Positions 2,207 to 37,815 of a DNA stretch of 64,000 nucleotides are shown piece by piece. A program made the translations under genes and the position numbers. The DNA is from Acidobacteriota bacterium (GTDB taxonomy: Bacteria > Acidobacteriota > UBA890 > WLXD01). The stretch covers positions 372,001 to 436,000 of the forward strand of contig WLXD01000001.1 of the NCBI GenBank assembly GCA_012103255.1, given 5' to 3'. Numbering within the stretch: position 1 is the stretch's first letter; every line of letters begins with the position of its first letter. The notes under the pieces were generated by a model that saw only the letters and a program-made list of their open reading frames with translations, was not told where the DNA came from and did not search any database.

Positions 2207-3430
2207 CTACCGCAGGGGCGCGGCGCACAACTCGCGGTACAGGTCCATGAATGCGATGCCCACACGCTCCCAGCTGAAGTCGCGGCCCACGATCATTCGG
2301 CCGCGTGAACCAAACTCCGCCTTCGGCGCGTGGACCGCGGCGCACAGGCCAACCGCCAGCGCCTCCACGGAGCTCGGCTCAACAAGCAGTCCGGATCGAC
2401 CATCTTCGATCTTGTCCGGCAGCCCACCGGCGCGAGTACCCAATACAGGCAAACCATGCGCCATCGCCTCGAGGGTCACGAGACTCGAACCCTCGAATCG
2501 GGTGGGGTGCACGAACCAGTCGGCCGTGGCGAGCAAGCCGTGTTTCGTTTCGTCGTCCACGCGTCCTGTGAACAACACTCGATCAGCGATACCCGCCGCC
2601 ACCACCGCCGCCTCGATTGCGCTGCGCTGCGGACCATCGCCGACAAGAACCCAGGCCCAATCTCCGAGTTCGTCCTTCGCGTCGCCGAGCGCCTCGGCCA
2701 GCAGGTCGAACCCCTTGTTCGCCTCGAATCGTCCCAGAGACACGAAGATGCACTCGCGCTCCCCCTGACCGCCGGCCACGAGGGTCGCTCTGGCCTTGCC
2801 AACATCCGCGGTTTGCGGACCCGCCTCGGGATGAATCGCATTCGGGATCACACAGGTCCGGTCGGCGCTTATGCCAAGGGCTCCGGCCACGACCGGCATC
2901 AGAACGCGGTCTGTCACGACGACCCGATCCACCGCTGCGCCAATCCGACGCATTCCTGCTCGGAACGGGCCGTACATCAGATGCTTCAATCCCCTGCCGA
3001 GGAACTCCTCCATTCCGTGCGCGGTGAGAACCAGCGGCACCGTCTGAGCGCCGCGGGCCCTGCGCTCGGCAACGCCGAGTCCTGCAAGGCCATGCACGTG
3101 AATCACGTCGGCAGGAGGCGCCATGGTCTTGGCGACGCGACGCGCCCAGATCGGATAGTTCGTGATCCGATCGAGCACGACGGTGCCGCGCATCCCGCCC
3201 AGAGGCAGTGGACCGGGCGCGACCCAGTGCAACGTGGCCGCGTCCTCGAAATCCGCTTCCGCAGCCCGCTGTCGAGCTGGCTCCGGCGTTTCCGTCCACA
3301 GATCCACGCGCGCGCCCGCCTTGGCCAATTCGTGGACCTGCTCCCGAACGGCGGTTTCAAGTCCGCCCGGGCCATGCGCTGGAGCTACGCGACGGCTTAT
3401 GACCGCTACCTTCGGTCGGAAGTCGCTCAC
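2207..3430 (-). CDS. Family 4 glycosyltransferase (GT-B fold)
   Basis: The 407-residue protein has the two-domain GT4 layout. A glycine-rich loop (HGPGGLE, 19-25) opens the acceptor domain. The donor domain carries VIPNAI (194-199), the GRFEANKG segment (233-240) and the retaining-transferase acidic pair E313 and E321 (E-x7-E), followed by a G-T-R-A-G-G-L-P loop. Donor and acceptor sugars cannot be read from the sequence. The GTG start at 3430 overlaps the stop of the upstream glycosyltransferase as GTGA (3427-3430), so the two are probably co-translated. It is the last glycosyltransferase of the polysaccharide locus; a 74-base gap separates it from the CcmI-like lipoprotein gene. Confidence 0.88.
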   Translation of the reverse strand: MSDFRPKVAVISRRVAPAHGPGGLETAVREQVHELAKAGARVDLWTETPEPARQRAAEADFEDAATLHWVAPGPLPLGGMRGTVVLDRITNYPIWARRVAKTMAPPADVIHVHGLAGLGVAERRARGAQTVPLVLTAHGMEEFLGRGLKHLMYGPFRAGMRRIGAAVDRVVVTDRVLMPVVAGALGISADRTCVIPNAIHPEAGPQTADVGKARATLVAGGQGERECIFVSLGRFEANKGFDLLAEALGDAKDELGDWAWVLVGDGPQRSAIEAAVVAAGIADRVLFTGRVDDETKHGLLATADWFVHPTRFEGSSLVTLEAMAHGLPVLGTRAGGLPDKIEDGRSGLLVEPSSVEALAVGLCAAVHAPKAEFGSRGRMIVGRDFSWERVGIAFMDLYRELCAAPLR

Positions 3431-4692
3431 GCTGTTGTCGCCGCCCGCGCCTCGCGATAGACCGCGAGCAACTGATCCAGGACGATTTCCGGCGCGAAGC
3501 GTCTCTCGCAGGCCCGCAGCGCGGCGCGGCCCAAAGCCGCAGCGCGGTCATCGTCCTCCAGAGAATCCAGTGCTTCTCGCAAGCCAGGCGTGTCGGTGTA
3601 GAGAAACCCGTCGACGCCATGCTCAATGGCCTCGGGGCTGCCACCCGTCACGCGGGCCACGGCTGGTGTGCCCACGGACATCGACTCGAGAATCACTCGC
3701 GGCAGCGCATCCTCTAGGACGCTTGGCACGATCACGGCGCGCGCCTCGCGGGCGGCGCGAAGCAATGAATCTCCGTTGGTCCAACCGAGCTGGACCAACT
3801 GTAGACCCGCGCGCCGCGCGGTGGCGTCCATGGCTGACTCCAGCGGCCCGGACCCAGCCACCACCAAGGGCCAGCGACAACCCGCAGCCGCGAGTTCGTC
3901 CACCAGAAGGTCGAATCCCTTGGTTGAGTTCAATTTCCCGGCCGCAAACAGGTATGGCCCCACCACGCCGGCGACTGGCTCGCCCCGATCGGCGGACTCC
4001 GCCGATCGCTCAGTGCTGATCATGTTCGGAACGACAACCAACTCGGCGGCCACGTGCACCGCGAGCCGGCGGCGGACAGCCTCGCTAACGCAGATCACGC
4101 GCTGGCACATCTCGAGCGAGCGCTGTCGCACGCGGAGTCGACGCACGCCCTGCCCCGCCGCGAGGCTCGCCAGAACCGGATGCACGCCGAACCCACGAAC
4201 GAGCGCCCTCCCTGCCAAACGCCGTTGCGAGACAGTGTCCTCAGTCTCGTCCGGCCAGGCGACGCTATCGAGCCGAATCGGCCACATATCGCGGATGGTC
4301 ACGACCGCCGCGCGCCCTGTGTCACGCGCGGCCCATGCGGCGCCTGGGCCGCTATGTAGATGCTGACCATGCACTAAACCGATGTCGGGTCGGCCCTCCA
4401 GGAAAGCCCGGACGCCGCTCCGCACCGGCGCTAGCGAGAAGTCCGCCGTTCGGAGATGACGCCTGGCCACGCGATGGCGACCGATCGGCAGCGTCTCGAT
4501 CCGCACGCCATCGAACTCGCGCATCAGCGGCGGGCCCGCGTCACGGGTCTCGACCTGCAGGACAGCCACCGGTTGTCCGGCTTCCTTGAGCTGCGCAACC
4601 AGCGCGTGCGTACTCCAACCGCTCCCGCCACAGTCAGGCGGGTACGCATCCGTAACGATGAGTACAGTGGACTCGCCGTCGGCCAAATTCAC
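3427..4692 (-). CDS. Family 4 glycosyltransferase (GT-B fold)
   Basis: I place the start at GTG 4692, giving 421 residues, because this codon overlaps the upstream stop as GTGA (4689-4692). A longer frame to 4749 would run 61 bases into the preceding gene and adds no family-like residues. The N-terminus then reads VLIVTDAYPP with a GGSG loop, typical of GT4 enzymes. The donor domain has VPNMI (221-225), GKLNSTKG (252-259) and an acidic pair D328 and E336 within EDALPRVILE. Both ends of the gene overlap their neighbours, as is common in this locus. Substrate unknown. Confidence 0.87.
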   Translation of the reverse strand: MNLADGESTVLIVTDAYPPDCGGSGWSTHALVAQLKEAGQPVAVLQVETRDAGPPLMREFDGVRIETLPIGRHRVARRHLRTADFSLAPVRSGVRAFLEGRPDIGLVHGQHLHSGPGAAWAARDTGRAAVVTIRDMWPIRLDSVAWPDETEDTVSQRRLAGRALVRGFGVHPVLASLAAGQGVRRLRVRQRSLEMCQRVICVSEAVRRRLAVHVAAELVVVPNMISTERSAESADRGEPVAGVVGPYLFAAGKLNSTKGFDLLVDELAAAGCRWPLVVAGSGPLESAMDATARRAGLQLVQLGWTNGDSLLRAAREARAVIVPSVLEDALPRVILESMSVGTPAVARVTGGSPEAIEHGVDGFLYTDTPGLREALDSLEDDDRAAALGRAALRACERRFAPEIVLDQLLAVYREARAATTA

Positions 4693-6080
4693 GACGACTC
4701 TCGGGGGGAATTCTCCACCAGGGACCAGCGATCCGTGAAGAATCGCCACAGAACGTTGGCGCCACGCCGTGGCACTTCGGTGAACTGGTTGACAGCAATC
4801 GTCGTCATTGCGACCGGCTGGTCACGAGGGATCATCCCGGTGGCATACTGAATCGCCAAGCCGAAGTTCCAGATGATCAGGAACGCGATGGTCGCCGTAG
4901 CATGCCGGCGCTTCGAGGTGGGAACCTCATCAAGAAGCGCGGCCAGACCCAAAGCGAGCAATGGCGTGCAGTTGAGAAACCTGCGCGCACCGAATGCCGC
5001 GCCGCCCCACCACGTCAGATACGAGCCGACCACGAGAACCTGGGCCACGAAGGCCAAGCCAAGGCCCGCGGCCACAACGGGATGGCGACGCCCCACGAAG
5101 TAGAGCCCGGCGGTAGCCAGGAGAGTCACCGGGGTCCATGAATAGAGACCGTGAAAGGCCGAGAACAAGACGTCGAGCGCGAACTGGGGGTACGAGAACT
5201 TCTCCGTCACGAACGGCGTTGGTGAAAACGCACCATGCAGGGCGTTGTAGACAACGAACTGCGGAGCGACCACTACCGCGAGAGAAACGCCGTACGTCGC
5301 GTAGCCGGGCACCCACTCAAACAACCTTCGCGCGTCGCCCGCGCGCAAACGGCCCAGAACTTTCATCGCTTCGTCGAAGAGCAACGGGATCATCATCAAC
5401 CAGTTGAGTTCCCGCACGAGCACCATCAAGCCGGCCGCCGCCCCCAAACCCATCCATTCGCGCACCGTGCGCTGGCGGTCTCGATTCCTGAGCCACAACC
5501 AGGTGAACAGTGCCACCGCGAAGATAGAGTTCGCGTGCGCCATGGGTGGCGTGATGTACAGGTAGAACACCAACGCCGAAGCGAACCAGATTCCGAGCAG
5601 GGCCAACTGAGATGCCCAGCGCCCGAAGAAGAGTCGGCACGCGCGGTAGATCAACGCCAGGCCGATCATTCCCCAGAAAAGCGACCCGATCGAGATCGCC
5701 CAGACGTAGGGCTGGCTGATGCCGTCGCGGGGGATTTCTGAGCCCAGCGCGTTCGCAGCGACCACCACGATGTCGGCCACCAGGTAGAACGGCGCCCACA
5801 GTAGCGGCGCTCCAATCGGGGCGTCGTTCAGAAATCGTCCCGTCTGAGTAGGCGAGTCGGCGAGGCTATGAACCCAGCCGTACGCAACGGGATCGCGTTC
5901 GATGAACAGATAGTAGTCGTTGTCGTATGTCAGATCTCCGTCGAAATAGACCGAACGCAGATGGCTCACATACTTCAACTCGTCCGCGGCATAGAGCCGG
6001 GGAGTGAAGAGCGGTAGGGCGACCAGTGCAGCAATGAGCAGCACACCCCATTCTTTGCGCCATTCGTTTGGAAGCGACAT
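4689..6080 (-). CDS. Polytopic membrane protein, probable GT-C type lipid-sugar-dependent glycosyltransferase
   Basis: Starting at ATG 6080, which avoids overlapping the upstream gene that ends at 6091, the protein has 463 residues. It has one N-terminal membrane segment, a soluble loop, then many hydrophobic helices to the C-terminus. An acidic pair in AADELKYV (residues 33-34) follows the first membrane segment. In GT-C enzymes such as ArnT, PMT and other polyprenyl-phosphate-sugar transferases, the catalytic Asp or Glu sits at this place. The position among soluble glycosyltransferases suggests it adds a sugar on the periplasmic face of the membrane. No specific family name can be assigned by eye. 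Confidence 0.65.
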   Translation of the reverse strand: MSLPNEWRKEWGVLLIAALVALPLFTPRLYAADELKYVSHLRSVYFDGDLTYDNDYYLFIERDPVAYGWVHSLADSPTQTGRFLNDAPIGAPLLWAPFYLVADIVVVAANALGSEIPRDGISQPYVWAISIGSLFWGMIGLALIYRACRLFFGRWASQLALLGIWFASALVFYLYITPPMAHANSIFAVALFTWLWLRNRDRQRTVREWMGLGAAAGLMVLVRELNWLMMIPLLFDEAMKVLGRLRAGDARRLFEWVPGYATYGVSLAVVVAPQFVVYNALHGAFSPTPFVTEKFSYPQFALDVLFSAFHGLYSWTPVTLLATAGLYFVGRRHPVVAAGLGLAFVAQVLVVGSYLTWWGGAAFGARRFLNCTPLLALGLAALLDEVPTSKRRHATATIAFLIIWNFGLAIQYATGMIPRDQPVAMTTIAVNQFTEVPRRGANVLWRFFTDRWSLVENSPRESS

Positions 6081-30988: not shown

Positions 30989-31071
30989 GTCGGCCCATGC
31001 TAGCGCCTGAGACCGACGCGGATCAGCACCCGCGCGATCACTGGATCGGCGTTACCTCACCGGCGAGGACG

Positions 31072-32481
31072 CTACTCGGACAGAGTCGCGAACTCCTCCG
31101 GCCCGAAGCGCCCGAGGACGACTCGATCACCGGGCGAGCCGGCCGTCGTGACAACGCAGTCACCTTCACGAATCGAACCGCGCGGGACGTCCGGCAACAT
31201 GCCGTAGAGGATCCCCTGGTGGGAGATCAGCACTCGGTTGCCATCGCGCGGGGCCGTCGCAAGAAAGTCCTCTCGCCCCCGCTTCTGCTCGCTGCTGTTT
31301 CCGTACTGCAGAGTCTCTGTCCGAGCCACGCGCCCGAAGGCAAGCTCGGCGGTATCTGCCGTCCGCGCGTATGGACTCGCGTGAACCTCGGCAATCGGGA
31401 CCCTGAGTGACTCGAGCACCTGGCCAAGACGACGAGCTTGCTCGCGGCCGGCCTCGGACAGCACGCGCTGGGTAGAGGGATCGTTCAGACGAACGCGGCG
31501 GGCATCGCCCCGGCTCCGATCTGTGATCGAGTGCCGGCAGGCGAGCACAAGGTCGCCCTTGCGAAGCTCGGCGAGCACCCCCACGCGCGCCGGCGTGGGC
31601 GCGGCCATCAGTGTTACGGCCGTGCCCAGCGTGCCGACCACCATGGTGACGGCCGTCGCCGTTCGAATGACGCGTCGCCGCCCAGCACCCGAAACCGCCG
31701 CGTGGGCGCCAGTCAATATCAAGACGCCCAGAGGCGCTGCGTAGCTCCCCGCGCGCTCCACGAACTCCCAGACGGGCGCGCCGCCGAGCAGGAAAAGCGC
31801 CTCGGTGCCAACCTTCCAGAGAAGGGCCGTGACCAGCAGACCGGGATGCGCGCTCAGCCAGATGGCCGTGCCGAGTGCGATTTCGAACGCGCCGATCAAC
31901 GGCAGCAGTTCGACCTGTGCCGTGACGAGTTGAATATGCTGCTGCAGCAAAGGCTTGCCCAAGGCCGCGAGGGCACCGTGGCCAATCAGAAGAAGCGCTG
32001 TGGTCGCTTGCAGGACGCGGACGACACGAGCCCGACGGTTCGCATCGCCGAGGTCAACGCGCACCCGCGTCACCCAGTCGCGAACACCCGCCTTGCTTGC
32101 CTGGAACCCTGTCGCGACCAAGAACGCCAAGGGCAGGCCGAAGTTTCCTGCCCGTTCGACAGTTTCGAAGAGCGACTCGCCCGCGAGGGGCCTCAGAAGG
32201 GCGGTCCAGGCCGCCCATCCGAACATGTAGACGAGAACCGCCGGCAACGGGACAAACAGAGTCAGGACGCCGGCCAGGATATCCACCGCGCCGACCCAGG
32301 GCATCAACGACACGGCCCAATGTTCGGGAATTCCGACGACGGCAAAGTAGGGAAGCCACGCCTGTTTGCCGAGGAGCCCGAACGCTCCGTGGCCAATGAA
32401 GCAACCCGCCACTCCAACCCTGAAGATGCACTCCAACACACTCGAGGGGGCGACTTTCGCCGCCAGTGATGTTCGCGTCAT
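31072..32481 (-). CDS. Fusion of a tandem DoxX-like membrane region with a histidine-phosphatase-like domain
   Basis: ATG 32481 has an excellent ribosome site (GGAGG, 7 bases before), giving 469 residues; the longer frame to 32574 lacks one. The membrane half is internally duplicated: GHGAFGLLGK at 30-39 recurs as GHGALAALGK at 167-176, and VERAG at 108-112 recurs at 241-245. Each unit resembles the four-helix DoxX family. After a last helix near 275-295 comes a phosphatase-like domain with ACRHSITD (R316, H317), SEAGREQARRLG, HASPYARTADTA (R373) and LISHQG (H421). These match the RHG core, second arginine and late histidine of histidine phosphatases. Topology and substrate are unknown. Confidence 0.75.
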   Translation of the reverse strand: MTRTSLAAKVAPSSVLECIFRVGVAGCFIGHGAFGLLGKQAWLPYFAVVGIPEHWAVSLMPWVGAVDILAGVLTLFVPLPAVLVYMFGWAAWTALLRPLAGESLFETVERAGNFGLPLAFLVATGFQASKAGVRDWVTRVRVDLGDANRRARVVRVLQATTALLLIGHGALAALGKPLLQQHIQLVTAQVELLPLIGAFEIALGTAIWLSAHPGLLVTALLWKVGTEALFLLGGAPVWEFVERAGSYAAPLGVLILTGAHAAVSGAGRRRVIRTATAVTMVVGTLGTAVTLMAAPTPARVGVLAELRKGDLVLACRHSITDRSRGDARRVRLNDPSTQRVLSEAGREQARRLGQVLESLRVPIAEVHASPYARTADTAELAFGRVARTETLQYGNSSEQKRGREDFLATAPRDGNRVLISHQGILYGMLPDVPRGSIREGDCVVTTAGSPGDRVVLGRFGPEEFATLSE

Positions 32482-32572
32482 CACGAGTCCTCCCGCTCCC
32501 ATGGGGGAGCCTGTCGCGGGGAGCGACTCCGCCAACGTATCGGCCTTGTTGGGAGTCCCGCCGGGCGCGCGC

Positions 32573-32586
32573 ACGAACCGGTTCGT
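32573..32586. promoter_or_regulatory. 14-bp perfect palindrome upstream of the DoxX-phosphatase gene
   Basis: ACGAACC is followed directly by GGTTCGT, a perfect palindrome without spacer. It lies about 92 bases before the DoxX-phosphatase start and 5 bases after the LytTR gene end. No T-run follows, so a terminator is unlikely. A dimeric repressor such as a TetR or MarR protein would recognise such a site, but no such regulator is nearby. Confidence 0.3.
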
Positions 32587-32591
32587 CGACG

Positions 32592-33425
32592 CTACGAATG
32601 GCTCCGCAGCGGAAACGATCGGGCGGCGTCTACCCTCGATCCGCCGACGGCTCCGTAGAGCGCGCGGCGACGCGAACGTGACACCTTGAGCCGCACTTTG
32701 TTACGGAGGAGCACAAAGGCCTCGCCCCGAAAATAGGGCTCGATCGCGACGACTCTCTCAAGGTTGACGAGGGTCGAGCGATGAATCCGCTGGAAGCGAT
32801 GTGCAGCGAGGCGACGCTCCAGGTTCTGCATGCGCTCGCGAATCAAGAAGTCGTGTTCGCCGACGTGCAGATGCATGTAGGGCCCGTCAGCAGCAACGTA
32901 GTCCACGTCTCGAATCGGCAGCAACAACGTTCGGTCGCCGCTCTGCACCGGTATCCGTGCTTCAGGATCAGCCGGCGAAGCCACCTGGGGCATCGCGGCC
33001 GCGCCGAAGCTGTCGATCAACTCGCCCATACGGGTGTGTAGTTCATCGAGGTGAGCTAGCCGCAGGTTGTCCTCGCACCGACCGAGCGCCTGCTGGAACC
33101 GCTCGTCGGAGAAGGGCTTGAGGAGGTAGTCGATCGCGAAAGTCTCGAATGCCTGGAGCGCGTACTGGTCGTAGGCCGTCACGAACACAACCGGGCACAT
33201 GTTCTCAACGCCAACCTCGCGAACGACCTCGAAGCCCGTCATCTCGGGCATCTGTACGTCCAGAAAGGCGACGTCCGGCTGGTCCGCACGAATCGCGTCG
33301 ATCGCTGCCGCGCCATGATCCACGGCGCGCGCGACCTCCCACCGGTCGGCATCGGTCAGAAGCTCGATTAGTCGCTGCCGCGCTGGCTCCTCGTCGTCAA
33401 CGACCAGGGCACGAAGCTGTTTCAC
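32592..33425 (-). CDS. LytTR-family response regulator
   Basis: The 277-residue protein has an N-terminal receiver with the acidic pocket VVDDEE (8-13), phospho-acceptor D56 in FLDVQMP and the conserved lysine K103 in LLKPF. The C-terminal LytTR DNA-binding domain (about 155-255) has the typical IPVQSGDRTLLLPIRDVDYV and HRFQRIHRSTLVNL segments. LytTR proteins bind two short direct repeats about two helical turns apart. Its start overlaps the stop of the kinase gene as ATGA (33422-33425), so it pairs with that kinase. Confidence 0.95.
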   Translation of the reverse strand: MKQLRALVVDDEEPARQRLIELLTDADRWEVARAVDHGAAAIDAIRADQPDVAFLDVQMPEMTGFEVVREVGVENMCPVVFVTAYDQYALQAFETFAIDYLLKPFSDERFQQALGRCEDNLRLAHLDELHTRMGELIDSFGAAAMPQVASPADPEARIPVQSGDRTLLLPIRDVDYVAADGPYMHLHVGEHDFLIRERMQNLERRLAAHRFQRIHRSTLVNLERVVAIEPYFRGEAFVLLRNKVRLKVSRSRRRALYGAVGGSRVDAARSFPLRSHS

Positions 33426-34624
33426 GGATGTGCAGGAGCTTCGCGCCGCGCCGCGGGCGCGCCGGCCACTCCGGCAGTGGCGGGCGTGTCCTCGAGTTGC
33501 CCACGTGCTGGCAAGGCGATCGCCACCTCGAAGCCCTGCCCTTCAGCGTTCCGCGCCACCATTTCCGCACCCGGACCATAGAGTTCCTGGAGCCTTGCTT
33601 CCGTGCTGCTCAGTCCGATTCCCCGTGTCAGTTCGTCGGGCGCGCCGGGCCCGTCGTCGAGTACCCGAAGTCTCAGCCGGTCGCCGTCCCGGTGTGCCTC
33701 CACGCGAACCGTGCTGGGGCCGCGTCGCATCGCCGTGCCATGCCGGATCGCGTTCTCCACCAGCGGCTGCAATAGAAAGCTCGGAACAAGCAGGTCGCGC
33801 GCATCCGGCGCGATCGCGAACTCGACGTGCAGCCTCTTGCCGTACCTGCGGCGTTCGATTTCCAGATAGTGCTGGGAAAAGGACAGCTCCTCGCGCAGCG
33901 GAACCTTGGTGGCCGCACCGTGATCAAGCGCACGGCGCAACAACGCGCTCAGAGAAGCAACCGTTTCGCGAGTCCCCGCGGGGTCCGTCGCCGCGAGGGC
34001 AGAGATCGTGTTCAGCGTGTTGAACAGAAAGTGTGGCTCTACCTTGGCCCGCAACGTCTCGTATCGCGCGTCCGCCAGGCTCGCCTGAAGTTGCGCCGCC
34101 TCGGTCAGCCGTTCGCGCGAATCGCGATAGTAGATCCAGGCGGCCGCGATGCCGAGAACGGCCGCATACGTGACGACATCCAGCAAGAGACCACGATGCA
34201 AATTGTCGCGAATGAGCGCCCAGTCGAGATGCCAGCGTGGATCCGGGCGGAAGCCCTCTAGGTGGACGAGCGCATTGTGGAGCGTGGCCGTGTAGGCGGC
34301 AGAGGCGAATACGACGGTCGCCAAGGCGGTTACATGGACGAGGAGCACGCGCGACTCGCGGAGATTCTCGAGTCGCCAGCGCCTGGCCAGCAGCACAAGG
34401 CCAGGGGTGACCAGCGCCCAGAAGATGTAGGGCGGCAAGATGTTTTCTGCCACTTCCGGCAGATGATCGAGAGGTCCGGGGGCGGCCGCACCTGGCGCCG
34501 CGTCGCACGCAACATTCTGCAGGCTGAGCAGGGAGTTGCCCACCGCCACCGCACCCAGAAGTGCCCACGCAGCGAGAATCAGGCCAATGCGGCCAAGCGA
34601 GAGTCGGTATGAACGGAACGCCAA
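33422..34624 (-). CDS. LytS/YehU-type sensor histidine kinase
   Basis: The start is TTG 34624, supported by GGAGG six bases before it. The 400-residue protein has four to five membrane segments in the first 165 residues and a short coiled linker. The His_kinase region then has VEPHFLFNTLN with the likely phosphorylated H198, and the HATPase part has LLQPLVENAIRHG and DDGPGAPDEL. The extracytoplasmic part is small, so the input may come from the membrane or a partner. It is the first gene of the two-gene system with the LytTR regulator. Confidence 0.93.
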   Translation of the reverse strand: MAFRSYRLSLGRIGLILAAWALLGAVAVGNSLLSLQNVACDAAPGAAAPGPLDHLPEVAENILPPYIFWALVTPGLVLLARRWRLENLRESRVLLVHVTALATVVFASAAYTATLHNALVHLEGFRPDPRWHLDWALIRDNLHRGLLLDVVTYAAVLGIAAAWIYYRDSRERLTEAAQLQASLADARYETLRAKVEPHFLFNTLNTISALAATDPAGTRETVASLSALLRRALDHGAATKVPLREELSFSQHYLEIERRRYGKRLHVEFAIAPDARDLLVPSFLLQPLVENAIRHGTAMRRGPSTVRVEAHRDGDRLRLRVLDDGPGAPDELTRGIGLSSTEARLQELYGPGAEMVARNAEGQGFEVAIALPARGQLEDTPATAGVAGAPAARREAPAHP

Positions 34625-34675
34625 GGTCTACCTCCGACGCCGATTACCTCACCTGGACGACGTAACAGGCAAGTG

Positions 34676-34708
34676 CAATGACACGAAGTGAGCGATCAGT
34701 GACACGAA
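34676..34708. promoter_or_regulatory. Direct repeat CARTGACACGAA x2, 21-base period, candidate LytTR operator
   Basis: CAATGACACGAA (34676-34687) and CAGTGACACGAA (34697-34708) match at 11 of 12 positions, with a 21-base step on the same strand. The pair lies 52-84 bases before the kinase start codon. LytTR regulators are known to bind two 9-base direct repeats spaced about 12-13 bases, so the geometry fits well. The exact bases recognised by this protein are not known. Confidence 0.55.
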
Positions 34709-34725
34709 CGGGACGGCGTGGACGA

Positions 34726-37197
34726 CTAGGTGTCGCCCCGGAGCGCGCTCGCCGGATCAACCTGCGACGCCTGCCGGGCGGGCATCAAACTCGCGCCCGC
34801 CGCGGTGACCACAAGCAGCCCGGAAGCCGCGGCGAGTGATACCGGATCGAACGCGTGGATCCCGTGCAGGAAATTCGACATCCACGACGCGCCGACCCAG
34901 GGAGCCAGCGCAGCAACGAGCAGCCCTGCGAGCGCCGATCCAAGGATGCTCAGCCCGAGACCTTCCTTGAGTACTTTCCTCAGCACGCTTCGTGCAGTGG
35001 CTCCGAGCGCCATGCGAACGCTCAGTTCACGACGACGTCCGGCCACCTGGAGAGCGATCACTCCGTAAAGGCCAACCGCCGCCAACACGATCGCAAAGCC
35101 AGCGAACGCCGTGACAATGAAGAGCATGAAGTCATGCATTCCATAGAGTTCCCGATGATGGTCAGCCAGCGCGGCAACTTCCTCGAGCGGCAGTCGATTC
35201 CCCAGATCCCAAACCGTCGCGCGCAAGGGCTCGATCAGTGTCTCGGGCGGCACGTCGGTTTTCAGCATGACGTGCATCAGCCCCTCCTTGCGAGCTTGCG
35301 CAGTAGGGACGAAGACCATCGGCGGCTGCGACCATAGGCCCCACTCCGCCGTGTCCCCGACAACGCCCACGATGCGAATCGGATCGTCGAAACCATCCAG
35401 TCCCCCACCGAAGCTCAGGGACGCGCGGATGGCGGCGCCAATCGCTTCTTTGCCCGCGAGCACCTCTTCCACGAACCGTTGGTTCACAACGCCAACCCTC
35501 TCGCCGCCCTCGACGCTCGAATCGTCAAAGAGGCTGCCGCGCACCACAGGCACGTCCAGGTGTTCGAAGTAGTCGGGGTCAACCCCGCGGTACTGAATCT
35601 CTCGGTTGTACGCGTCGGCTGTCATCGCGCCCGGTGCCGACCCATCCGTCGTCACGGTCACGGGATCGCCGAAGCCTGTCAGCGGCGGGATCGTGCTCAG
35701 CCAGGCTTGCCGAACGCCGGGAAGCGCGTCGAGCTCGTTGGCGAGCGTCCGGTAGAAGGACAGCCGGTTGTCGGGGCCATCTATGTCGGTGAGTACACGC
35801 GCCGTGAGTACGTTCTGGTAGTCAAAGCCGACGTCATAGGTGTACGTCCGAACCATGGATCGGGTCAGAAGGCCTGCCTGGGCGAGCAGAAACACGGCCA
35901 GAATCGTTTGCACGACTACGAGTCCGCGTCGAACTACCAGCTGGCGTCGACCACCCACCGATCGAGCCCCAGCACGCATCGCACCGATGGGATCCGTTTG
36001 CCACGCGGCCATGATCGGAGCCAAGCTCGCCACGAGAACCGTGCCTCCTCCGACTGCTGCGGCAACCATGAAAGCTCGCAGGTTGATCGCGGCCCCGGCC
36101 AGCAACGTGCCGCCCCAGCCACTCGGTGCGACCCGGAGTAGCACCGGGAGCATCGCCGTTGCGAGCACGCCACCGGCGAGGATACCGGCCGTCGCGATGA
36201 GGAAGCCTTCGCCAAGAACTACGGCCGCCACACGACCGCGACTCGCCCCAAGAGCCTTACGCACTGAGAGCTCGTCGAATCTACCCAGACCGCGCGACAG
36301 CATGAGCCCGGCGAGATTGATGCAACCGATCGTGAGCGCCAGTGCGGCCGCGACGGCGAAGATCAGAAGCGCCGGCCGGCGCCATTCAAGCCAGTCCTCT
36401 CGCATCGACACGATCGTCACGCCGCGGTCTTCGTTGGTCTCCGGATACTCCGTGCGCAGGGCCGCGGCCACGCCGTCGAGTTCATCCCGGGCGCCGGCCA
36501 GTTCCTGCCCCGAGGTGAGTCGTCCCACCACGAAGAGGTCCGGCGAGCTCCTGTCAGCTGCTTGCTCTGGGGTGATTGTCAGCGGGCGCCAGACTTCGAT
36601 CGAAGAGGCGAACGGAAACTGAAACTCAGGCGGCATCACGCCGACGATTCGCGTTAGCTCGCGGTCCATGGTGACCTCGCGCCCCACGATGTCGGCGTCG
36701 CGTCCGAAAGCACGTGTCCATAGTCCGTCGCTGATCACTACAACGGCGGCTGCGTCCTTGACGTCCGCCATGTCAATGCCCCTACCCAGGGTGGGGCGAA
36801 CTCCCAACACGTCGAAGAGTCCCCCCGTGACCCGGATGCCACGCGGCCGCAGAGCCGTCGACGCTGTGCTCATCAGCGGTGATGCGTACTCGTACGCCTC
36901 GAGGGCATCGAAGCCTGTCACGGTTGCACGCCAGTCGAGGTAGTTGGCGCGCGACACTGGCCAGCGGTCGATGTCCGGATCCACGAGACTACGCTCGTAG
37001 AGCGCCGCGAGATTGTCCGCGCCGACATAGGGCATCTCGGCGAACGCCACGGCGTCGACGATGCTGAACACCAGCACGCTGCCGCCGATTCCCAGGGCGA
37101 GAGTGAATGTAGCCAGGAACGCGTAGCCGGGGCGTGTCGCCAGCGCGCGGGCAGCAGCGCGCAGATCGTGGGGCACGAGACGTGACAATCTGTCCAT
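34726..37197 (-). CDS. MacB/FtsX-type ABC permease, orphan (ADOP-like)
   Basis: The 823-residue protein starts at ATG 37197 with GGAGG five bases before. It has the layout of duplicated orphan permeases: an N-terminal LRAAARALATRPGYAFLATFTLALGIGG segment (split here only for reading: RPGYAFLAT, TLALGIG), a MacB-type periplasmic core, three membrane helices, then a second periplasmic core and a C-terminal FtsX group with LYGVIALQVAGRRRELSVR and MALGA. No ATPase is adjacent, as is usual for these acidobacterial-type permeases. It lies between the LytTR system and hldE2. Substrate unknown. Confidence 0.85.
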   Translation of the reverse strand: MDRLSRLVPHDLRAAARALATRPGYAFLATFTLALGIGGSVLVFSIVDAVAFAEMPYVGADNLAALYERSLVDPDIDRWPVSRANYLDWRATVTGFDALEAYEYASPLMSTASTALRPRGIRVTGGLFDVLGVRPTLGRGIDMADVKDAAAVVVISDGLWTRAFGRDADIVGREVTMDRELTRIVGVMPPEFQFPFASSIEVWRPLTITPEQAADRSSPDLFVVGRLTSGQELAGARDELDGVAAALRTEYPETNEDRGVTIVSMREDWLEWRRPALLIFAVAAALALTIGCINLAGLMLSRGLGRFDELSVRKALGASRGRVAAVVLGEGFLIATAGILAGGVLATAMLPVLLRVAPSGWGGTLLAGAAINLRAFMVAAAVGGGTVLVASLAPIMAAWQTDPIGAMRAGARSVGGRRQLVVRRGLVVVQTILAVFLLAQAGLLTRSMVRTYTYDVGFDYQNVLTARVLTDIDGPDNRLSFYRTLANELDALPGVRQAWLSTIPPLTGFGDPVTVTTDGSAPGAMTADAYNREIQYRGVDPDYFEHLDVPVVRGSLFDDSSVEGGERVGVVNQRFVEEVLAGKEAIGAAIRASLSFGGGLDGFDDPIRIVGVVGDTAEWGLWSQPPMVFVPTAQARKEGLMHVMLKTDVPPETLIEPLRATVWDLGNRLPLEEVAALADHHRELYGMHDFMLFIVTAFAGFAIVLAAVGLYGVIALQVAGRRRELSVRMALGATARSVLRKVLKEGLGLSILGSALAGLLVAALAPWVGASWMSNFLHGIHAFDPVSLAAASGLLVVTAAGASLMPARQASQVDPASALRGDT

Positions 37198-37292
37198 CGG
37201 AACCTCCGCTCAAGTACCAGGAACTCGGCACTGATCCGAGGCTAGGTGGATGGCGCGGGTGGCGACCGACGCGGTGTCACGGGCGCCGTTAC

Positions 37293-37325
37293 TCGCGACA
37301 CCAAACGGCGCCGCGAGAACACGAA
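37293..37325. promoter_or_regulatory. Weak second copy of the 21-base-period direct repeat, upstream of the orphan permease
   Basis: CGACACCAA (37296-37304) and GAACACGAA (37317-37325) each match TGACACGAA at 7 of 9 positions and keep the same 21-base step and strand as the pair before the kinase gene. They lie about 99-130 bases before the permease start. Individually they are weak; the shared spacing is the argument. Confidence 0.3.
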
Positions 37326-37338
37326 TGGGGGCGCCGCT

Positions 37339-37815
37339 CTAGGCGTCGGAGCGAAGCTTCTCGATGATAGAAGTAGTCGAGTAGCCGCTGACCAGATCGA
37401 TGAAAGCCACGTCGCCGCCATTGGCACGCACGATGTCCGCCTCCGGCAATGGCTTGGCCTCCCAGTCGGCGCCCTTCACGTAGACGTCCGGGCGTAGGGC
37501 CTGCAGCAGGGCCGTGGGTGCGCTGTCCGTGAAGATCACAACATGGTCGACACAGCGCAGCTCGGCGAGCATTTCGGCACGGGCGCCCTCGGACATCACC
37601 GGTCGAGAAGTGCCCTTGAGCTCGCGCACCGATTCATCACTGTTGAGGCCGACCACAAGAATGTCGCCGAGAGCACGGGCCGCACGCAAGCCGGCGATGT
37701 GACCGGGGTGCAGCAGGTCGAAGCAACCGTTGGTGAACACGACCCGCTGGCCGGCGGTACGTGGCTCGGCAAGTGCCGCATTCACGGTGTCGATCGTCTC
37801 GGCGCCCCGCGACAC
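37339..37815 (-). CDS. Heptose 1-phosphate adenylyltransferase-like nucleotidyltransferase (HldE domain II)
   Basis: The 158-residue protein has the nucleotidyltransferase motif FTNGCFDLLHPGH at 27-39 with HPGH at 36-39, GLNSDESVRELKG and a late GYSTTSIIEKL in place of the usual ISTTKI region. This matches the stand-alone second domain of RfaE/HldE, which makes ADP-heptose for LPS core. No kinase domain (HldE1) is nearby. GTG 37815 follows the wzt stop by one base. A related enzyme acting on glycerol phosphate is possible but less likely. Confidence 0.83.
   Translation of the reverse strand: MSRGAETIDTVNAALAEPRTAGQRVVFTNGCFDLLHPGHIAGLRAARALGDILVVGLNSDESVRELKGTSRPVMSEGARAEMLAELRCVDHVVIFTDSAPTALLQALRPDVYVKGADWEAKPLPEADIVRANGGDVAFIDLVSGYSTTSIIEKLRSDA

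Follow-up and report, generated by a model that had tools for sequence, protein, structure and literature searches.

A tandem DoxX-like membrane protein with alternative phosphatase-type partners and its recurrent fusion to a histidine phosphatase domain

DoxX-type proteins are widespread and still poorly understood. Histidine phosphatases of branch 1 are recognised by motifs in a set order, namely a catalytic RH pair, a second arginine, a second histidine and an acidic residue. The nearest described analogue of a locus which brings these two kinds of protein together is SaePQRS of Staphylococcus aureus, an operon which encodes a DoxX-type protein (SaeQ), an extracytoplasmic partner (SaeP), a kinase and a regulator (PMC7189620, PMC5083920). 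SaeQ is predicted to belong to the DoxX family (PMC7189620), with four predicted helices in one account (PMC5083920) and three in the other (PMC7189620), and SaeP and SaeQ form a ternary complex with SaeS, inducing its phosphatase activity (PMC5083920). The resemblance to the locus described here is one of gene content, which we found in the window (the whole 64,000-nucleotide stretch of Acidobacteriota DNA that was analysed), in loci L017, L018, L019, L116 and L119 and, with one gene between, in L117, the extracytoplasmic side of the partner being predicted in these cases. The differences are that SaeQ is a single unit, that SaeP is described as a DM13-like lipoprotein rather than a phosphatase, and that no fusion is described there. 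Among the papers searched, none joins DoxX with histidine phosphatase, PAP2, haloperoxidase, vanadium-dependent haloperoxidase, Gemmatimonadota or TMEM35A.

The features of the locus are collected in Table 1. A preliminary description, made from the sequence alone, had read the gene as a duplicated four-helix unit followed by a histidine phosphatase domain, and the analysis bears out both parts of that reading. The motifs on which it relied (GHGAFGLLGK and GHGALAALGK, VERAG twice, RH at residues 316-317, SPYART at 369-374 and SHQG at 420-423) are present, and profiles of the two membrane halves, built from the family alignment, align with each other at 99.6% probability (E 4e-24); on the strength of these profiles, the membrane units represent a genuine duplication. 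The C-terminal part scores 30.5 bits against Pfam His_Phos_1 (PF00300), above the gathering cut-off of 21.7 (E 3.5e-7), and the top solved match to its AlphaFold2 fold is SixA (1ujb; Z 14.2, 142 residues, 3.2 A), with which the next match, 3f2i, ties. The expected catalytic residues (Table 1) are all present, and their equivalents are invariant in 7/7 aligned phosphatase domains, an alignment which does not include L116. Score, catalytic residues and predicted fold agree in assigning the domain to branch 1 of the histidine phosphatase superfamily. The nearest NCBIfam models are PRK06193 (E 2.8e-21) and then PmrG, all below their cut-offs and spanning only the catalytic part of the protein. The AlphaFold2 model of the whole fusion, computed with 40 family rows, has a pLDDT of 87 and a pTM of 0.67, so that the domains are reliable and their mutual arrangement is not; the membrane part alone reaches a pLDDT of 94.6. 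The domains and the membrane tether proposed earlier are supported.

Table 1 Positions in the window of the fusion gene, its predicted parts and the neighbouring genes.
Feature	Position	Strand	Basis or remarks
Fusion gene, tandem DoxX-like membrane protein and histidine phosphatase	31072..32481	minus	469 aa, ATG start
DoxX-like unit 1, residues 12-124	32110..32448	minus	AlphaFold2 helices and half-versus-half profile match
DoxX-like unit 2, residues 147-264	31690..32043	minus	AlphaFold2 helices and half-versus-half profiles; NACHO/TMEM35A match over 147-260
Ninth hydrophobic segment, residues 268-293, next to RRR	31603..31680	minus	
Histidine phosphatase domain, residues 301-468	31078..31581	minus	R316, H317, R373, H421, E439
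LytTR response regulator	32592..33425	minus	Pfam Response_reg and LytTR; 110 nt upstream of fusion
Sensor kinase (His_kinase family)	33422..34624	minus	Pfam His_kinase and HATPase_c; start codon provisional
MacB/FtsX-type permease	34726..37197	minus	Pfam MacB_PCD and FtsX
Block of permease, kinase, regulator and fusion	30990..37360		Absent at this site in three relatives

A search for the same architecture in other genomes recovered the fusion in a Gemmatimonadota MAG (L017; 59% identity to the window in the membrane part and 63% in the phosphatase), in a Longimicrobiales MAG (L018; 56% and 52%) and in L116 (4181-5632; 50% and 36%), and in L117 the fusion can be followed as far as the beginning of the phosphatase, at which point the contig runs out. 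Because the same fused architecture recurs in other genomes, the fusion is, on this sequence evidence, real and not a frame error. The preliminary description had allowed that the two halves might always occur as separate genes in relatives and that a frame error had joined them here; in several relatives the halves do occur side by side as separate genes, though not in all of them, and there is no sign of a sequencing error. An artefact of frame or assembly joining two genes is refuted by the open fused copies elsewhere (membrane part 50-59% and phosphatase 36-63% identical), and its probability is close to nil.

Where the phosphatase is a separate gene, it shares about four bases with the end of the membrane gene (L019, L024), lies just upstream of the membrane gene (L120, L124), is parted from it by the kinase and regulator genes (L119) or is found about 1.1 kb away on the opposite strand (L020). 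Several of these separate phosphatases (L019 2868-3695, L119 4941-5948, L120 3799-5139) carry an extra C-terminal part, which had no Pfam match in L119 or in L019, where it is cut by the contig end. In the fusion of L116 an arginine replaces the second catalytic histidine, so that catalysis may not be a property of every member.

Among 395 Gemmatimonadota genomes, for which the best candidates were scored (at most four per genome), 11 have a full match to the tandem membrane part. Two of these hold complete fusions (G409, G529), one a fusion ended by the end of the contig (G757), four a phosphatase on the same contig (G411, G574, G675, G758), three a PAP2-type neighbour (G510, G729, G791) and one neither partner (G470); a twelfth genome, G518, gave a weak partial match only, and in G555 and G745 the match is confined to the phosphatase. 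In the phylum of the window, 15 of 396 genomes match, most of the membrane part being covered only in the window's own genome and in G220, with a short weak membrane-part match in G330. Nine genomes of the window's order and 17 of G220's order gave only the copies already known. No relatives were confirmed in viral contigs, and 23 plasmid records match the phosphatase part only, none covering 80% of the query and the top-ranked one having 34.6% identity over 38% of it.

In order to describe the membrane family, we relied on a scan of genome contigs with the membrane parts of the window and of L005, using two peptide patterns, which confirmed 128 loci, the best 80 of which were fetched with flanks of at most 6 kb, several on short contigs. 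In most family loci the membrane protein stands alone and is about 260-285 residues long. In an alignment of 88 members, Cys27, His31, Lys39, Asp67, Arg97, Glu109, Arg110 and Asn113 are invariant, as are His168, Glu200, Lys223, Glu227, Glu239, Glu242 and Arg243 in the second half. As for the DoxX assignment made earlier, the window protein is below the cut-off for Pfam DoxX_3 (E 0.19, 12.7 bits against 25), as is its membrane part alone (E 0.13), whereas 27 of 40 members (the window and 39 of the best 80 of 128 loci) match DoxX_3 and 22 of 40 match DoxX at E<=0.1, with a best E of 6.9e-6, and the label DoxX-like is fair on account of these matches. The family is like DoxX and DoxX_3 (PF07681, PF13781) in its four-helix units and weak profile matches, and unlike them in having two such units, eight helices in all, and its own set of invariant H, K, D/E and ER motifs.

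The top solved match to one unit is NACHO/TMEM35A (9h9e; Z 8.5, 2.4 A, 113 residues, 17% identity), a human receptor assembly factor which has one unit where the present family has two; the match is modest for a helical protein and is tied with 3dby (Z 8.0, 4.2 A, 213 residues). These two were the only rows at Z>=8, and Foldseek found no match to the eight-helix part at E<=0.001, giving NACHO an E of 0.17 at a probability of 1.00.

The preliminary description had also tied the phosphatase to the redox state of the membrane, and this part found no support: the membrane part of the window protein has no CxxC motif, the block contains no recognisable redox gene, and the top fold match, modest and tied as it is, is to an assembly factor. 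A DoxX-like part that exchanges electrons with the quinone pool and thereby gates the phosphatase would be consistent with Cys27, invariant in 88/88 family rows, with cysteines 315 and 442, a possible disulfide beside the catalytic-site motifs in the window, L017 and L018, and with a lesser structural similarity to vitamin K-dependent carboxylase (Z 6.0-7.4). However, neither L116 nor the aligned separate phosphatases have both cysteines of the 315/442 pair, and Z values of 6-7 are within the noise for helical proteins, and with CxxC and redox genes lacking as well we consider such coupling very unlikely.

In the best 80 of 128 loci, a set dominated by Mucilaginibacter and drawn with two patterns, so that its proportions are not unbiased, the partner is a PAP2-type protein in 58, a histidine phosphatase in 5, both in none and neither in 17, some of the latter being on short contigs. 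The PAP2-type gene lies within 300 nt in 54 of these 80 loci and within 300 nt on the same strand in 51. The usual companion of the two-unit membrane protein is a phosphatase-type enzyme, and two unrelated superfamilies fill one slot beside it: the alternative partner belongs by sequence to the vanadium haloperoxidase/PAP2 family (4cit, class A acid phosphatases), whose enzymes have no relationship to the window's histidine phosphatase. The PAP2-type partner in L028 matches Pfam PAP2 (E 3.3e-16), and the two partners tested against the vanadium haloperoxidase 4cit, those of L028 and L022, gave E 1e-15 and 4.3e-28. In L042, an open frame at 2464-4878 reads as a tandem DoxX-like part fused to a PAP2/vanadium-haloperoxidase-type protein, a mirror of the window, its second part having a lipobox-like start and a PAP2 match (E 3.7e-5) below the cut-off.

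A vanadium-haloperoxidase-type query had no match at E 1e-3 in the four genomes of L017, L018, L019 and L020; in the genome of L022 it found one copy, at the coordinates of the partner neighbour. In the genome of L024, where the partner is a histidine phosphatase, the query gave two weak hits of PAP2 type (E 3.5e-8 and 7.6e-4), and general PAP2-superfamily genes exist in the genomes of the window (four matches) and of L017-L019.

The history of the exchange was followed on a membrane-part tree of 88 rows, comprising the window, 79 of the best 80 of 128 loci and eight of nine further loci; L080, which is incomplete, and L123, apparently one and the same contig with L031, were left out. The histidine phosphatase label needs at least four changes on this tree by parsimony (shuffled mean 10.6), of which well-supported branches force only one, so that, as far as the tree of these sequences goes, repeated partner exchange is likely rather than established. 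In the same tree L051, from a contig labelled Williamsia (Actinomycetota), groups within Bacteroidota, and this contig is probably mislabelled or from a contaminated bin.

Since one platform goes with either partner, the shared task would most simply be the hydrolysis of phosphate esters in the envelope. As the PAP2-type partners resemble vanadium haloperoxidases, the shared activity may also not be that of a phosphatase, and the common chemistry could be an oxyanion- or vanadate-based oxidation, with the histidine phosphatase replacing a haloperoxidase-like activity. The matches of the L028 and L022 partners to solved vanadium haloperoxidases fit this idea, but the L028 partner matches acid phosphatases and LpxE as well, and we know of no natural haloperoxidase role for histidine phosphatases; we rate an oxidation as very improbable and keep envelope phosphate-ester hydrolysis as the working reading.

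Other genes recur around the family. In Mucilaginibacter the order seen in L028 (2733-10920) and similar loci is a small protein, a barrel-like protein without a Pfam match, the PAP2-type protein, the tandem DoxX-like protein and a second barrel-like protein, followed by a RidA-like protein (named by eye), a D-serine dehydratase-like protein and an M19 dipeptidase. A gene for a large FG-GAP/UnbV_ASPIC (CRTAC1-like) protein is found near the tandem DoxX-like gene in L021, L022, L023, L025, L027, L029, L036, L045, L057, L080 and L122, as assigned by Pfam for L022 and by similarity for the others.

Charge was used to judge the orientation of the protein. When the loops are assigned from the modelled helices, the mean net charge per residue comes to 0.008, 0.159, 0.053 and 0.267 for the four inner stretches and to 0.027, -0.128, 0.040 and -0.113 for the four outer ones. 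The conserved acidic E..ER loops fall outside and the short inner loops are basic, but the pattern is not clean, since the remaining pair of outer loops carries a slight positive charge and the N-terminus is neutral. In the window, L017, L116 and L117, basic residues precede the hydrophobic segment that leads into the phosphatase; the end of this segment reads AxA-Q in L018 and takes looser A-Q forms in L116 and L117. The separate phosphatases have a hydrophobic stretch or a lipobox at the N-terminus when judged by eye, with some starts guessed; by a simple hydropathy scan 3/7 pass the threshold there, the same scan detecting only 6/9 expected segments in the window protein. Charge pattern, pre-phosphatase segment and signal-like starts together argue for a phosphatase outside the inner membrane, and we infer that the domain most likely faces the periplasm and that the ninth helix was probably once the signal peptide of a separate phosphatase.

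SixA is located in the cytoplasm, and in principle the phosphatase could likewise be cytoplasmic and act, as a SixA-type phosphohistidine phosphatase, on the kinase next door. It is from SixA, tied with 3f2i, that this idea draws its structural support, but the loop charges and the ninth segment speak for an outward position, as do the lipobox or signal-like starts of the separate relatives, and the window protein scores 23.2 bits against the SixA model TIGR00249 (NCBIfam), far below the cut-off of 74.5. We therefore give this idea very little credence and retain the periplasmic orientation.

Permease, sensor kinase, LytTR regulator and fusion follow one another in the window, all on the minus strand, the kinase gene overlapping that of the regulator by 4 nt. 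There are 11 loci with a histidine phosphatase (the window, L017, L018, L019, L020, L024, L116, L117, L119, L120 and L124). Kinase and regulator genes are directly adjacent in six of them (the window, L017, L018, L019, L119 and, in divergent orientation, L116), and if a one-gene gap is allowed, as in L117, the count becomes 7/11. A weak two-component match lies 2.4 kb off in L024, and no two-component genes were found near L020 (a contig of 3.2 kb), L120 or L124. In contrast, none of the 75 other loci among the best 80 of 128 has a kinase or regulator match within 2.5 kb, the nearest being 2,767 nt away in L021, a comparison in which queries taken from the window and L017 favour the histidine phosphatase loci. 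The pairs of L017, L018, L116 and L117 resemble that of L017 (OmpR-type by eye), and those of the window, L019 and L119 resemble that of the window (LytTR).

Three relatives, two of the same genus and one of the same family, have less than 100 nt between mfd and a nucleotidyltransferase-like gene (named by eye), where the window has 6.4 kb holding the permease, kinase, regulator and fusion genes. The best kinase matches of these relatives are only 34-40% identical, as against 69-86% for mfd, and in the membrane-part tree the window groups with L017 and L018 (99/96). The absence of the block, the low kinase identity and the tree grouping suggest that the block arrived as a unit and that the fusion is akin to those of Gemmatimonadota; alternatively, the three relatives have each lost the block.

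The association with two-component genes raises the possibility that the DoxX-like/phosphatase protein is an accessory of the SaePQ kind, an input or off-switch of the adjacent kinase, with the signal determined by the action of the enzyme on a compound of the envelope. This would account for the adjacency in the histidine phosphatase branch and for the architecture of the window kinase, whose four hydrophobic segments leave scant room for a sensor domain, and it has its precedent in the effect of SaePQ on SaeS. However, two different two-component classes are involved, the two hydrophobic segments of the L017 kinase are parted by a large stretch of sequence, most of the family goes with PAP2-type partners and has no two-component genes close by, the queries came from the histidine phosphatase loci themselves, and adjacency alone would fit simple transcriptional control. 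We regard such an accessory role, taken as the whole explanation, as rather unlikely.

The reading we prefer, which in our judgement stands about an even chance of being correct, is that of a membrane-bound extracytoplasmic phosphatase on a tandem DoxX-like platform or assembly partner, tied to a two-component system in the histidine phosphatase branch. The eight helices of the tandem part would form the platform, and the ninth, derived from the signal peptide of an exported enzyme, would hold the histidine phosphatase on the outer face of the inner membrane. Either partner would hydrolyse a phosphate ester in the envelope. In the histidine phosphatase branch, the sensor kinase and regulator probably control the pair of platform and phosphatase or are tuned by it, by analogy with the tuning of SaeS by the DoxX-family SaeQ and the lipoprotein SaeP. 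A bolder and decidedly doubtful extension is that the tandem DoxX-like protein is a general socket for exported phosphoester enzymes, into which two unrelated phosphatase superfamilies have been recruited, and that the histidine phosphatase branch represents a sensory cassette, acquired by horizontal transfer, whose DoxX-like helices relay the state of the periplasmic enzyme to the adjacent sensor kinase.

The pairing of a DoxX-like protein with either of two unrelated enzyme superfamilies offers a concrete idea of its role beyond redox chemistry, and suggests that some vanadium-haloperoxidase-like genes may act as phosphatases. Beside SaePQRS, the locus would be a second case of DoxX-type proteins tied to two-component systems.
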